Origin: an uncultured Amylibacter sp.
Lineage (GTDB): Bacteria > Pseudomonadota > Alphaproteobacteria > Rhodobacterales > Rhodobacteraceae
Direction of reading: 5' to 3'
Assembly: GCA_943846615.1 (NCBI GenBank)
Contig: OX044354.1
Location: 2,063,001-2,127,000, forward strand
Length of the DNA stretch: 64,000 bases
Shown here: piece after piece, positions 39,427 to 42,500 of the stretch
Numbering within the stretch: position 1 is the stretch's first letter
How the letters are laid out: each line of letters starts with the position of its first letter
Notes under the pieces: model-generated
Told to the model about the DNA's origin: nothing
The model's input: the letters and a program-made list of their open reading frames with translations, nothing else
The model's database searches: none
Position numbers and translations under genes: made by a program

Positions 39427-40296
39427 ATGCCGACATTTACTGCACTGACAACACTGGCTGGCCGTGATGCCGCCAATGACTTGGGCCTCGCATTGGAAAA
39501 CCTCGAAGACGCACCATATGGCGTCGGTGTTTTCGAAATCGAAGATGGCTCTGGCCTATACGAGGTTGGCGGATATTTCGTGGATGCCCCAAATGAAATC
39601 GCACTGTTGATCCTAACAACTGCATATGGTGCAAAACCATTTGTGGTGTCCGAAGTTCCCGACAAAGATTGGGTCGCAGAGGTGCGCCGCGAATTGGCCC
39701 CAGTCGCCGCAGGTCGTTTCTTCGTCTACGGCGCACATGATGCGGATAAGGTTCCTGATGATTGCATGCCCCTTCTGATCGAGGCGGCAATGGCATTCGG
39801 TACAGGCCACCACGGCACGACCAAGGGCTGTCTGACCGCGTTAGATACGCTGGCGAAGCAGGGATTCATCGGCAAAAACGTCATCGACGTTGGTTGTGGA
39901 ACGGCTGTTCTTGCCATGGGCGCGGCACTGCTATGGCCGGGCAATGTCATGGCCAGCGACATCGACGAAATCGCCACTGAAACATCCAAGGCGAACGCGG
40001 TAGCTAACAATCTCGGCGATCGCATCGATGTGGTCACCTGTGCTGGATTTGATCATCCCGACTTGATTGCCAAAGCACCATATGATTTGATTTTGGCGAA
40101 TATCTTAAAAGGCCCATTGGTTGAACTGGCCCCCGACATGGCTAAAAATTGCGCCGCGGGCGGTTACACAATCCTGTCTGGTATCCTAAACACACAGGCC
40201 GAAAACGTGATCGAGGCTTACGAAGACGAATCCTTCACTCTGATCGATCACACTAAACTGGGCGAATGGTCTACATTGACACTGCAAAAATCTTAA
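39427..40296 (+). CDS. prmA: Ribosomal protein L11 methyltransferase
   Basis: This protein has 289 residues. The C-terminal methyltransferase domain carries the SAM motif VIDVGCGTAVLAMGAALLW near 155 and the post-motif ASDIDEIATETSKANAVANN. LILANILKGPLVELAPD is the PrmA form of motif IV. AMAFGTGHHGTTKGCL is also typical. It methylates ribosomal protein L11 in the cytosol. AAGGGA precedes ATG 39427. Confidence 0.93.
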   Translation: MPTFTALTTLAGRDAANDLGLALENLEDAPYGVGVFEIEDGSGLYEVGGYFVDAPNEIALLILTTAYGAKPFVVSEVPDKDWVAEVRRELAPVAAGRFFVYGAHDADKVPDDCMPLLIEAAMAFGTGHHGTTKGCLTALDTLAKQGFIGKNVIDVGCGTAVLAMGAALLWPGNVMASDIDEIATETSKANAVANNLGDRIDVVTCAGFDHPDLIAKAPYDLILANILKGPLVELAPDMAKNCAAGGYTILSGILNTQAENVIEAYEDESFTLIDHTKLGEWSTLTLQKS

Positions 40297-40341
40297 CAAC
40301 AGGAATTTTTCGCGCTAAGCTTGCGAAAAAGGGTGACAAAC

Positions 40342-40740
40342 ATGCCGTCGGACAATCGCGCAGATTTTCATAAACGCCTCGCCTCGTTGGACAAAAAAGA
40401 AACGACAGGCGGTCGCGCCAAACGTACTGATCGCGTCGGTATCTATGATCAAGACGAGGAAAAGCGCCGCAAGGCACGACGATTCCCATGGAAACGTTTC
40501 GTGATTACGATTCTAATCGGCATCGTCGGTCTGATCGGGATCAAAGCATATACCGTCAATAAAATGGGCGAAGAGGCATATCAAACCCGCCTGACGGAGC
40601 TACGCGAAGGCGACGGCATGCAACCCTACGTCGCGATCATCATCGGTCGCGATCCCTTGATGATGGTGTTTGAACGTCTTCTGTTTTCCAAAGACCCCAA
40701 AACGAAAGACGCCCCAGAAGTAACTCCTGAGGCGTCCTAA
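40342..40740 (+). CDS. Hypothetical single-pass membrane protein
   Basis: This 132-residue protein is not recognised by name. A charged cytosolic N-terminal region (about 1-50, with RAKRTDRVGIYDQDEEKRRK) is followed by one membrane helix (VITILIGIVGLIGIKAY near 55-72) and an external tail. ATG 40342 has AAGGG at a good distance; the in-frame TTG at 40321 does not. The last ten codons (DAPEVTPEAS) lie on the left arm, loop and right arm of the terminator hairpin of the convergent DUF1127 gene, so the C-terminus may be a by-product of that repeat. Confidence 0.72.
   Translation: MPSDNRADFHKRLASLDKKETTGGRAKRTDRVGIYDQDEEKRRKARRFPWKRFVITILIGIVGLIGIKAYTVNKMGEEAYQTRLTELREGDGMQPYVAIIIGRDPLMMVFERLLFSKDPKTKDAPEVTPEAS
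40708..40736 (-). terminator. Terminator of DUF1127 copy 1, inside the convergent coding sequence
   Basis: GACGCCCCAG and CTGAGGCGTC form a 10-bp stem with one mismatch, 31 bp past the DUF1127 stop on the minus strand. It is homologous to the hairpins at 41114-41141 and 41512-41545. It also encodes the C-terminus of the rightward hypothetical protein and may terminate both directions. Confidence 0.65.
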
Positions 40741-40766
40741 AATTCGATGTAATAGGATGGTACCTA

Positions 40767-40964
40767 TTAAACGTTGTTGATTTCACCGCGTGTCAGGCCA
40801 ATGTCTGCCAATTCGCGAGCTGACAATGCACACAACTCTGCTTTTGTTACGCGCGCTTGATTCCAAGCAGTCACTTTAACGATGACATTTTCCAGAACCT
40901 GTGTCGCACCAGCGATTAGGTTCGCGCCGAATGGTAGAGATGCAGTGTTTTGGTAAGTAGCCAT
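40767..40964 (-). CDS. DUF1127 small protein, copy 1
   Basis: This 65-residue protein starts MATYQNTASLPFGANL and ends with the conserved YjiS-type motif LSARELADIGLTRGEINNV of the DUF1127 family. Such small proteins in Rhodobacter are tied to stress-induced sRNA operons and RNA turnover; a role here is inference. AAGGAAC lies before the ATG. It is the most diverged promoter-distal unit of a three-copy tandem array. A homologous terminator follows. Confidence 0.85.
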   Translation of the reverse strand: MATYQNTASLPFGANLIAGATQVLENVIVKVTAWNQARVTKAELCALSARELADIGLTRGEINNV

Positions 40965-41030
40965 GAGAAAGTTCCTTTCATCGGTGTTAATTTCTTTGGT
41001 GCCTCATATGTAACTTTGCTCTGCCCACAT

Positions 41031-41063
41031 TACCAATGTTGGTTCGGAATTTCCGTTATGCAG
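41031..41063 (-). promoter_or_regulatory. Conserved 33-bp upstream element, DUF1127 copy 1
   Basis: This block is shared with the other two copies and sits 66 bp before the start codon. On the minus strand it holds GGAAATTCCGAACC (TTCCGAA-type dyad) and then TTGGTA. About 18 bp later is TACATA, a plausible -35/-10 pair. It is likely the promoter plus an activator site. Confidence 0.55.
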
Positions 41064-41113
41064 CAATGGCATAGCGATAAAAAAGGGCTGTATCACGACT
41101 TCTCCAAACGCAA

Positions 41114-41141
41114 AACGCCCCAGAAATTATCTCTGAGGCGT
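41114..41141 (-). terminator. Terminator of DUF1127 copy 2
   Basis: ACGCCCCAGA and TCTGAGGCGT form a stem downstream of copy 2 on the minus strand, followed by TTTT. It is homologous to the other two terminators of the array. Confidence 0.75.
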
Positions 41142-41170
41142 CTGATTATTCAGTATAATAGGATAACCTA

Positions 41171-41368
41171 TTAGATGTTTTTGATGTCACCACGTGTCAT
41201 GCCAATGTCAGCCAATTCGCGTGTCGACAAAGTAGCCAATTCAGCTTTCGTCGCGCGTTTTGCATTCCATTCAGTTACGTTCGCAACAACGTTTTCGATA
41301 ACGTTTGTGATGCCAGCAAATAGGTTAAAGCCGAAAGGTTGAACGTTAGTGTTTTGGTAGGTAGCCAT
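41171..41368 (-). CDS. DUF1127 small protein, copy 2
   Basis: This 65-residue paralogue starts MATYQNTNVQPFGFNLF, with the C-terminal motif LSTRELADIGMTRGDIKNI. The middle (NVTEWNAKRATKAELA) shows the basic character of the family. It has its own promoter element, a leader with AAGGAAC, and its own terminator, so it is an independent transcription unit of the triplicated array. The role is unknown; the family is linked to stress and RNA metabolism in alphaproteobacteria. Confidence 0.85.
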   Translation of the reverse strand: MATYQNTNVQPFGFNLFAGITNVIENVVANVTEWNAKRATKAELATLSTRELADIGMTRGDIKNI

Positions 41369-41433
41369 GATAAAGTTCCTTTTATCGGTGTGAATTTCTT
41401 TGTTGCCTTATATGTAACTTTGCCCATCCCACA

Positions 41434-41466
41434 TTACCAATGCTGGTTCAGAATTTCCGATATGCA
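41434..41466 (-). promoter_or_regulatory. Conserved 33-bp upstream element, DUF1127 copy 2
   Basis: This is the same block as at copies 1 and 3, 66 bp upstream of the start codon, nearly identical to copy 3. It carries GGAAATTCTGAACC and TTGGTA on the minus strand, with TACATA downstream. Confidence 0.55.
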
Positions 41467-41511
41467 AATTTGGCATATCAATCCAGATTAGCTAAATGAC
41501 CTGATCAAACC

Positions 41512-41545
41512 AAAAAAAACGCCCCAGAGAAAACTCTGAGGCGTT
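41512..41545 (-). terminator. Terminator of DUF1127 copy 3
   Basis: AACGCCCCAGAG and CTCTGAGGCGTT form a long stem with a 4-base loop and an eight-T tract on the minus strand. This is the strongest terminator in the array. Confidence 0.88.
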
Positions 41546-41574
41546 CGAATTTGATATAACAGACTGTAAGTCTA

Positions 41575-41772
41575 TTAGAAGTTTTGGATGTCACCGCGTG
41601 TCAGACCAATGTCAGCCAATTCACGAGCAGTCAATTTTGACAATTCTTTTTGTGTTGCACGTGACTGGCTCCATGCTGTCAGGTTCGCCGCCAAGTTTTC
41701 AAGAACGTTTACTGCACGATAGATAACAACTGCGCCGAAAGGTTGAGCGTTTGTGTTTTGGTAAGTAGCCAT
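41575..41772 (-). CDS. DUF1127 small protein, copy 3
   Basis: This 65-residue paralogue starts MATYQNTNAQPFGAVVIY and ends LTARELADIGLTRGDIQNF. It is the copy next to ruvC, from which it diverges. The leader keeps AAGGAACTT before the ATG and the upstream element is intact. It has the strongest terminator, so it may be the ancestral or most active copy. Family function is not established beyond links to stress and RNA turnover. Confidence 0.85.
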   Translation of the reverse strand: MATYQNTNAQPFGAVVIYRAVNVLENLAANLTAWSQSRATQKELSKLTARELADIGLTRGDIQNF

Positions 41773-41837
41773 GATTAAGTTCCTTTAATCAGTGTGAATT
41801 TCTTTGTTGGCGGTTATGTAGCTTCGGACAATTCACT

Positions 41838-41870
41838 TTACCAATGCTGGTTCAGAATTTCCGATATGCA
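41838..41870 (-). promoter_or_regulatory. Conserved 33-bp upstream element, DUF1127 copy 3
   Basis: This is the same conserved block, 66 bp from the start codon. The sequence between it and the gene has diverged from the other copies while the block itself has not, which argues for a bound factor. Confidence 0.55.
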
Positions 41871-41987
41871 AAAAATGCATGGGCTTTGTCACTTGAATTT
41901 CACAATTATGAACTAACGATAAAAATCCCCACTTGGCGAATGTTCTTGTTTCGTGCTATGTAGGGTCAAAAGCAGGAACAGGCAAAA

Positions 41988-42500
41988 ATGCGTGTAATCG
42001 GAATTGATCCAGGTCTTCGAAATCTGGGCTGGGGTGTTGTTGATGTGGCGGGGACGAAAATCGGCCACGTCGCAAATGGCATATGTAAATCTTCAACGGG
42101 CACATTGGCAGAACGCTTGCGCGAACTGCACGAACAACTGACCCACGTTATATATACGCATCAGCCAACGACGTCGGCGGTGGAAAAAACGTTCGTAAAC
42201 AAAGACGGCGCAGGCACATTGAAATTGGGTCAGGCGCGTGGGATTTGTTTATTGGTGCCGGCACAGGCGGGATTGGATGTTGCCGAATATGCCCCTAATA
42301 CGATTAAAAAGGTCGTGGTTGGCGTCGGTCACGCGGATAAAAAACAGGTCGAACATATGGTGCGCATGCAATTGCCTAAGGTGACGTTTAATGGGCCCGA
42401 TGCGGTCGATGCTTTGGCGATTGCCTTGTGTCATGCGCATCACGCGCAATTCTCGGGTAAATTAGACGCGGCATTGGCACGCGCACAGGGGGCCGCATGA
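41988..42500 (+). CDS. ruvC: Holliday junction endonuclease RuvC
   Basis: This protein has 170 residues. Catalytic acidic residues are visible in [19 protein letters not shown] (Asp7), [10 protein letters not shown] (Glu near 66) and the C-terminal [15 protein letters not shown] (two Asp). It is a homodimeric resolvase that cuts the junctions moved by RuvAB. It is the first gene of a long rightward operon; its stop overlaps the ruvA ATG by 4 bp. Confidence 0.96.

Follow-up and report, generated by a model that had tools for sequence, protein, structure and literature searches.

Three DUF1127 genes beside ruvC in an uncultured Amylibacter sp.: a probable, ordinary case of one complete transcription unit copied in tandem and in register

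The three DUF1127 genes that adjoin ruvC in the genome of an uncultured Amylibacter sp. form an array that is real but ordinary, best read as a transcription unit that was copied as a whole, in tandem and with its register kept. The explanation that fits the observations best, and that is held here to be very probable, is that one complete DUF1127 transcription unit was duplicated in tandem and that a second round took place between the existing repeats. The array was analysed in a window of 64,000 nucleotides (contig OX044354.1, positions 2,063,001 to 2,127,000), where its genes lie on the minus strand with 65 codons each and ATGs at 41772 (unit 3), 41368 (unit 2) and 40964 (unit 1), as listed in Table 1. 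The PF06568 bit scores of the three proteins (44.8, 46.6 and 49.8) are all above the Pfam gathering cut-off of 23.3, and the protein identity to unit 1 is 66% for unit 2 and 62% for unit 3.

Regarding the neighbourhood, ruvC (41988-42500) is divergent from the array, and the opposite flank is occupied by a convergent ORF, 40321-40740(+), preceded by prmA (39427-40296). Both ruvC and prmA were named by eye in the window, the convergent ORF has no Pfam or NCBIfam match, and the same ruvC/prmA order surrounds DUF1127 in relatives. Between ruvC and the array, at about 41925-41965, the stretch TAGCACGAAACAAGAACATT.GCCAAG (minus strand) has few changes in many relatives, and it is probably the ruvC promoter. 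When the three array proteins were searched against NCBIfam, the sole match was that of unit 3 to an aldolase/dehydrogenase model, taken as chance at 18.4 bits vs a cut-off of 686. The structure model, built on eight of the nine proteins and weak (mean pLDDT 67, pTM 0.31), has a long helix followed by two short helices, and the four sequences of solved structures that matched at E<=1, only over short parts of IcmE/DotG and designed helical proteins, were likewise taken as chance.

Table 1. Features of the three DUF1127 units in the window (positions of the window).
Feature	Unit	Position	Strand	Evidence
44-nt activator-type block (ATGC-N7-GCAT ... CATTGGT), 111 nt before ATG	3	41840..41883	-	matrix score 16.0, window rank 2; pattern
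44-nt activator-type block	2	41436..41479	-	matrix score 16.3, window rank 1; pattern
44-nt activator-type block	1	41032..41075	-	matrix score 14.8, window rank 3; pattern
Leader hairpin, ribosome-binding sequence in loop	3	41773..41790	-	folding z -2.45
Leader hairpin	2	41369..41386	-	folding z -0.75
Leader hairpin (different register)	1	40965..40982	-	folding z -0.99
DUF1127 gene (65 aa), adjoining ruvC	3	41575..41772	-	PF06568 E=2.7e-13
DUF1127 gene (65 aa)	2	41171..41368	-	PF06568 E=2.8e-12
DUF1127 gene (65 aa)	1	40767..40964	-	PF06568 E=1e-11
Stop-codon hairpin (sequence unlike units 1 and 2, pairing kept)	3	41557..41577	-	folding
Stop-codon hairpin	2	41156..41173	-	folding
Stop-codon hairpin	1	40750..40769	-	folding
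Intrinsic terminator, long T-run	3	41517..41546	-	pattern scan and folding
Terminator-like hairpin, short T-run	2	41114..41142	-	folding; missing from pattern scan
Terminator, overlapping 3' end of convergent ORF	1	40706..40738	-	pattern scan and folding

The start codons are exactly 404 bp apart, twice, as an earlier sequence-only reading had pointed out, and all three genes pass the Pfam cut-off. When 40700-41911 was compared with itself, a single shift stood out strongly, that of 404, with 66.6% identity and z=16.2 among the shifts 150-699 (the next has z=2.3), and a 300-nt repeat family with 72-78% identity lies in register across the units. The same reading had taken the length of the unit to be unaltered down to the base, which is true from start to start and fails inside the units. 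The terminator arms begin 229/247 (unit 3), 228/247 (unit 2) and 230/249 (unit 1) nt past the ATG, these landmarks being shifted by 1-2 nt from unit to unit, and the spacing between terminator repeats is 406/404 and 406/403. Thus, indels have occurred that cancel inside both 404-bp intervals, and the constancy of the unit length is net only. Compared without gaps, the two intervals are identical at 276/404 positions, of which the gene accounts for 138/198, the 3' end with the terminator for 28/58, the spacer for 21/44 and the promoter with the leader for 89/104; the promoter block starts 111 nt ahead of the ATG in each of the units, and likewise in the single copy of the relative G028. That equal lengths need cancelling indels is counted against the duplication account. 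Lengths at the ruvC-DUF1127 site change little, as the distance between the ATG of ruvC and that of the first DUF1127 gene in the seven nearest genomes, the window's included, is 216, 215, 207, 206, 207, 207 and 207, being exactly equal in 6 of 21 genome pairs.

Each gene is preceded by the 44-nt block, for which a matrix was derived from 29 relatives through a simple motif search, with the window's genome left out. When both strands of the 64-kb window were scanned, the blocks of the three units ranked 1-3 (16.3, 16.0 and 14.8), followed at ranks 4-5 by unit sites on the opposite strand (6.4 and 2.4), and the best score outside the array was 1.8. The relatives' own blocks score 22.5-39.3, above those of the window; training of the matrix on these very blocks explains part of the gap, and drift of the window's sites the other part. 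A stricter pattern, ATGC-N7-GCAT followed after 15-26 nt by TTGNTAA, has four occurrences across the 2.75-Mb genome, and the array units account for three of them. Activator sites of LysR-type regulators have a T-N11-A layout, and the ATGC-N7-GCAT dyad, as a sequence, fits it. A sigma-70 scan found 3 sites vs 3.0 expected and is uninformative. At the second DUF1127 locus of five relatives (G002, G007, G030, G022 and G026; L115-L118 and L121), a similar element of the GCATAGCGG.(A/C).TGCAAA type was seen by eye, in 5 of 17 other DUF1127 upstream regions, which suggests that one regulator may serve several DUF1127 loci.

Downstream of the genes, each of the three units folds into a strong terminator hairpin; the pattern scan reports those of units 1 and 3 and misses that of unit 2, which has a short T-run. 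The claim that each unit has its own promoter, gene and terminator stands for the block, the gene and the hairpin in 3/3 units. The last codons and the stop of the convergent ORF lie inside the terminator stem of unit 1 (window 40706-40740), so termination in both directions is possible and this terminator may act on the transcripts of both strands; by coordinates, G028 has the same overlap of its terminator with the convergent ORF. The stop-codon hairpins take in the tandem stops TAATAG; in unit 3 the arms have another sequence than in the two other units, with the pairing kept. As for the leaders, the folding z of six of them is near -2.4 in unit 3 and G028, -1.91 in G002 and -0.75 to -1.49 in the others, and across eight of the nine leaders (without G030) 95.7% of cells are paired, with one double change. 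This pairing was equalled by 81/500 shuffles, and the leader hairpin was rejected as an RNA switch, being kept as a weak feature only.

The genus sample comprises 33 genomes, the window's (G000) included, with DUF1127 present in 33/33 and ruvC at E<=1e-20 in 32/33. The ruvC region was compared in 31 relatives, 30 of which have DUF1127 on the expected strand beside ruvC, mostly within 0.7 kb (1.3 kb in G005), and in the remaining one, G008, the contig ends before that position. The six nearest by RuvC, from G028 at 97% through G002, G007, G026 and G030 to G022 at 84%, have one DUF1127 copy each, so that the duplication proposed by the sequence-only reading is supported. The limited completeness of G028 (79%, with a contig of 4015 bp) counts against this account, although the contig does run from prmA into ruvC. 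Another six relatives are multi-copy at the site, with spacings of 221-579 bp: 299 in G024, 316 in G013, 314 in G001, 265 in G009 and 579 in G019 for two copies, and 221 (or 230, by the start chosen) and then 310 bp in G006, which has the sole other three-copy array there. With corrected starts, and with G005 and G008 left out, the block precedes the first ruvC-linked gene in 29/29 relatives, a count that is partly by construction, and among the seven further copies only that of G019 has it. Like the array of the window, G001, G006, G009, G013 and G024 have two or three DUF1127 genes beside ruvC; unlike it, their six further copies (two in G006) all lack the block and follow intergenic gaps of 26-100 nt, so these copies look operon-internal. 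Five relatives thus multiplied the DUF1127 gene without a promoter, and the window's genome and G019 multiplied it with one. A search of named relatives gave 3 loci from 159 candidate stretches (Phaeobacter, Pseudooceanicola and, weakest, Acidisphaera), and a literature search of limited scope gave no paper pairing DUF1127 with ruvC, with Roseobacter or with tandem and paralog.

Outside the window, the same genome has a second DUF1127 array of three genes (L139:1776-2675; G000:C1 about 690.0-690.9 kb), divergent from a LysR-type gene, whose first gene has no Pfam match of its own. With the DIG[ML] motifs as marks of the gene cores, the distance between neighbours is 327 bp both times, a spacing noticed after the fact and without a base rate; the presumed ATGs of genes b and c lie 333 bp from each other. 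Gene a can hardly be aligned to gene b, and the intergenic DNA is unalignable. The equal core spacing (327, 327) is not explained by an alignable duplication, and it is counted against the duplication account of the array beside ruvC.

Considering the course of events by which the array beside ruvC was most probably built, a single-copy unit with activator site, promoter, leader, gene and terminator, as found at ruvC in the nearest relatives, would have been duplicated in tandem as a 404-bp repeat. Unequal recombination or slippage between the two repeats then present would have added a third copy in the same register, and equal spacing follows automatically when the third copy comes from recombination between two 404-bp repeats. 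The copies would then have diverged by substitution under purifying selection, with few small cancelling indels. As the three units keep the same activator-like block of LysR type, they would most likely be induced together, raising the dose of near-equivalent small proteins. The homology of the copies, their branching order in part, the single copy of the nearest relatives and the common promoter block are directly supported; a recombination mechanism, a LysR-type regulator, co-induction and dosage are what we infer from them.

The age of the copies bears on when this took place. The dN/dS pairs of the three copy comparisons are 0.26/0.77, 0.29/0.78 and 0.29/0.90, so a recent duplication, as the sequence-only reading had it, is unsupported by dS values of 0.77-0.90, and the selected divergence that it offered beside it comes down to ordinary purifying selection, to which a dN/dS of about 0.3-0.4 points. 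Unit 3 has a dS of 0.46 to the single copy of G028 and of 0.78 and 0.90 to units 1 or 2, and between the window's genome and G028 dS is 1.21 for the first 300 nt of ruvC and 2.45 for prmA, such high values being rough. In the tree, units 1 and 2 are a sister pair (bootstrap 99 with promoter and gene, 90 with the gene alone), and the three topologies tested that break this pair are rejected on promoter and gene together (AU p 0.0004-0.012), with two of the three surviving on the gene alone (p 0.073 and 0.151); units 1 and 2 are thus probably the younger pair. The best tree also joins all three units, with bootstrap 89 when the promoter is included and 71 for the gene alone. A tree that places unit 3 with G028 survives the AU test as well (p 0.163 with the promoter, 0.397 for the gene alone), so the duplication may be the older event and the split from G028 the younger; G028 would later have lost two copies, and gene conversion would have kept the promoters of the copies alike. 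The gene of unit 3 is indeed closer to that of G028 (152/195) than the copies are to each other (135-140/195), and the promoters of units 1 and 2 (95/111) and of units 2 and 3 (89/111) are closer than those of unit 3 and G028 (84/111). However, for units 1 and 3 the promoter identity (83/111) does not exceed that of this last pair, and a loss plus conversion is required, so this order of events is possible but rather less than probable. On either order, the first duplication would be near the split between the window's genome and G028, before or after it.

The sequence-only reading had also raised a constraint on spacing, in which the units must lie 404 bp apart, for instance through contacts between regulators on neighbouring promoters. 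The exact distance, kept twice despite 68% ungapped identity and indels, would agree with it, as would the second array with its cores 327 bp apart twice in unalignable intergenic DNA. The relatives decide otherwise: copy number and spacing vary among them, with 221-579 bp in the six multi-copy ones and an unequal array in G006, and the constraint is left unsupported. Moreover, the two arrays of the genome use different numbers (404 vs 327), the ATGs taken for genes b and c of the second array are off its core spacing, and equal lengths by descent are common at the ruvC site (6/21 pairs), all of which makes a selected spacing very improbable. The variable spacing that the sequence-only reading had named as its refutation is therefore found as regards constraint, and the accompanying idea that the equal distance is a coincidence of independent insertions is wrong as well. 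Three copies could also have been specialised, each for another condition or target. Codons 8-43 are the most divergent (64-68/108 identical), the start and end of the protein being kept; the core promoter and leader of unit 3 share 48 and 52 of 67 positions with units 1 and 2, which share 59/67 between them; and the terminators are unlike in T-run. Against these differences stand the same activator block in 3/3 units, dN/dS well below 1 and the 65 codons kept by all copies, and specialisation is judged unlikely. Since the same cis element precedes all three copies, the sequences favour dosage over different conditions. Finally, a locus of the CIN1 type, with ccaF1 and CcsR sRNAs as regulatory RNAs from 3' ends, could be thought of for a small DUF1127 gene in an apparent Rhodobacterales genome with a stable double hairpin after each gene. 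However, just about 30 nt separate the stop codon from the terminator stem, and CTCCTCC, which we take to be the mark of CcsR sRNAs, has no exact occurrence in the 4.2-kb locus. In Rfam, which may lack CcsR, no family reaches its gathering score in the whole window, and the 11 weak matches at 40600-42000, far below it (best Spot_42, E 0.11, 22.8 bits vs 80), lie mostly on terminators and were rejected as chance. There is thus hardly any likelihood of a CIN1-type locus.

Compared with known DUF1127 systems, the array proteins resemble CcaF1 of the CIN1 locus of Rhodobacter sphaeroides, a small DUF1127 protein of 71 aa for which RNA binding is reported (PMC10253847), and that probably belongs to the same order; an RpoHI/RpoHII promoter is reported for CIN1, and unlike that locus, the array shows no sign of CcsR-like sRNAs downstream. 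In Agrobacterium, arginine-rich small DUF1127 proteins (SDPs), with an average Arg content of about 14%, are described as binding PhoR, and the joint loss of their three genes in one genome gives phenotypes (PMC12501420). The array shares with these SDPs the DUF1127 domain and the presence of three genes in one genome; in contrast to the high Arg content and positive charge of the SDPs, its proteins have 4.6, 4.6 and 6.2% Arg and net charges of 0, 0 and +1. As they are not arginine-rich, neither the PhoR binding of the basic members nor the RNA binding of CcaF1 can be assumed for them. In Sinorhizobium, a DUF1127 gene attenuated by a translated uORF in its leader is described (PMC12218461).

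The regulator of the block may be sought among relatives of VtlR/LsrB. In Brucella, the LysR-type VtlR is reported to regulate three DUF1127 genes and the sRNA AbcR2 positively, through the box CAATGCAGCCATGCA (PMC12595884), and in Agrobacterium, VtlR activates atu1667, the orthologue of two Brucella targets, its box being written GCAT-N3-TG-N3-T (PMC7486931). The likeness is that an activator-type site lies ahead of each of several small DUF1127 genes; the difference is that the window has its genes at a single locus, in tandem. Within 200 nt, on both strands and with ties counted, the Brucella box finds its best match in one register of the block in 19/30 relatives' blocks, and the block of G009 agrees with the box at 14/15 positions. 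For 300 shuffled boxes, the mean count in the same register is 0.17 and the maximum 6; in any register and strand, the mean is 6.3 and the maximum 21, with 2/300 reaching 19, figures that are not a clean probability, as the sequences are related. In the units of the window, the box matches 7/15 positions in register each and 9-10/15 at best elsewhere in the 200 nt. LsrB is described as unique to Rhizobiales, where lsrB-trxB is the arrangement (PMC11975290). That neighbourhood is missing here, as no LysR gene lies within 1.5 kb of the sole trxB above the cut-off, and the ORF beside this trxB reads, by eye, as an Lrp-type regulator. Among the 16 genes with LysR-type HTH matches in the genome, none is above an NCBIfam curated cut-off and none, at E<=1e-30, carries a VtlR/LsrB name, in a collection that may hold no such model. 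VtlR-like control of the ruvC-linked DUF1127 genes in the genus is therefore kept as a lead. A bolder reading, speculative and on balance doubtful, is that the resemblance of the genus-wide block core to the VtlR/LsrB box would reflect an old LysR-DUF1127 circuit outside Rhizobiales and that, in the species of the window, the site drifted and the whole unit was tripled; if true, regulator site and target array would be evolving together in this species.

The idea of a constrained spacing is thus replaced by an ordinary one, in which equal spacing is what remains after two rounds of tandem duplication, and the most likely effect of the array would be a larger amount of a small regulatory protein, with its control unaltered. 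Besides, the comparison reveals two routes of DUF1127 multiplication at one chromosomal site, within an operon or together with its own promoter. The genus-wide promoter block offers a handle for finding the regulator of the poorly understood DUF1127 proteins in this group.
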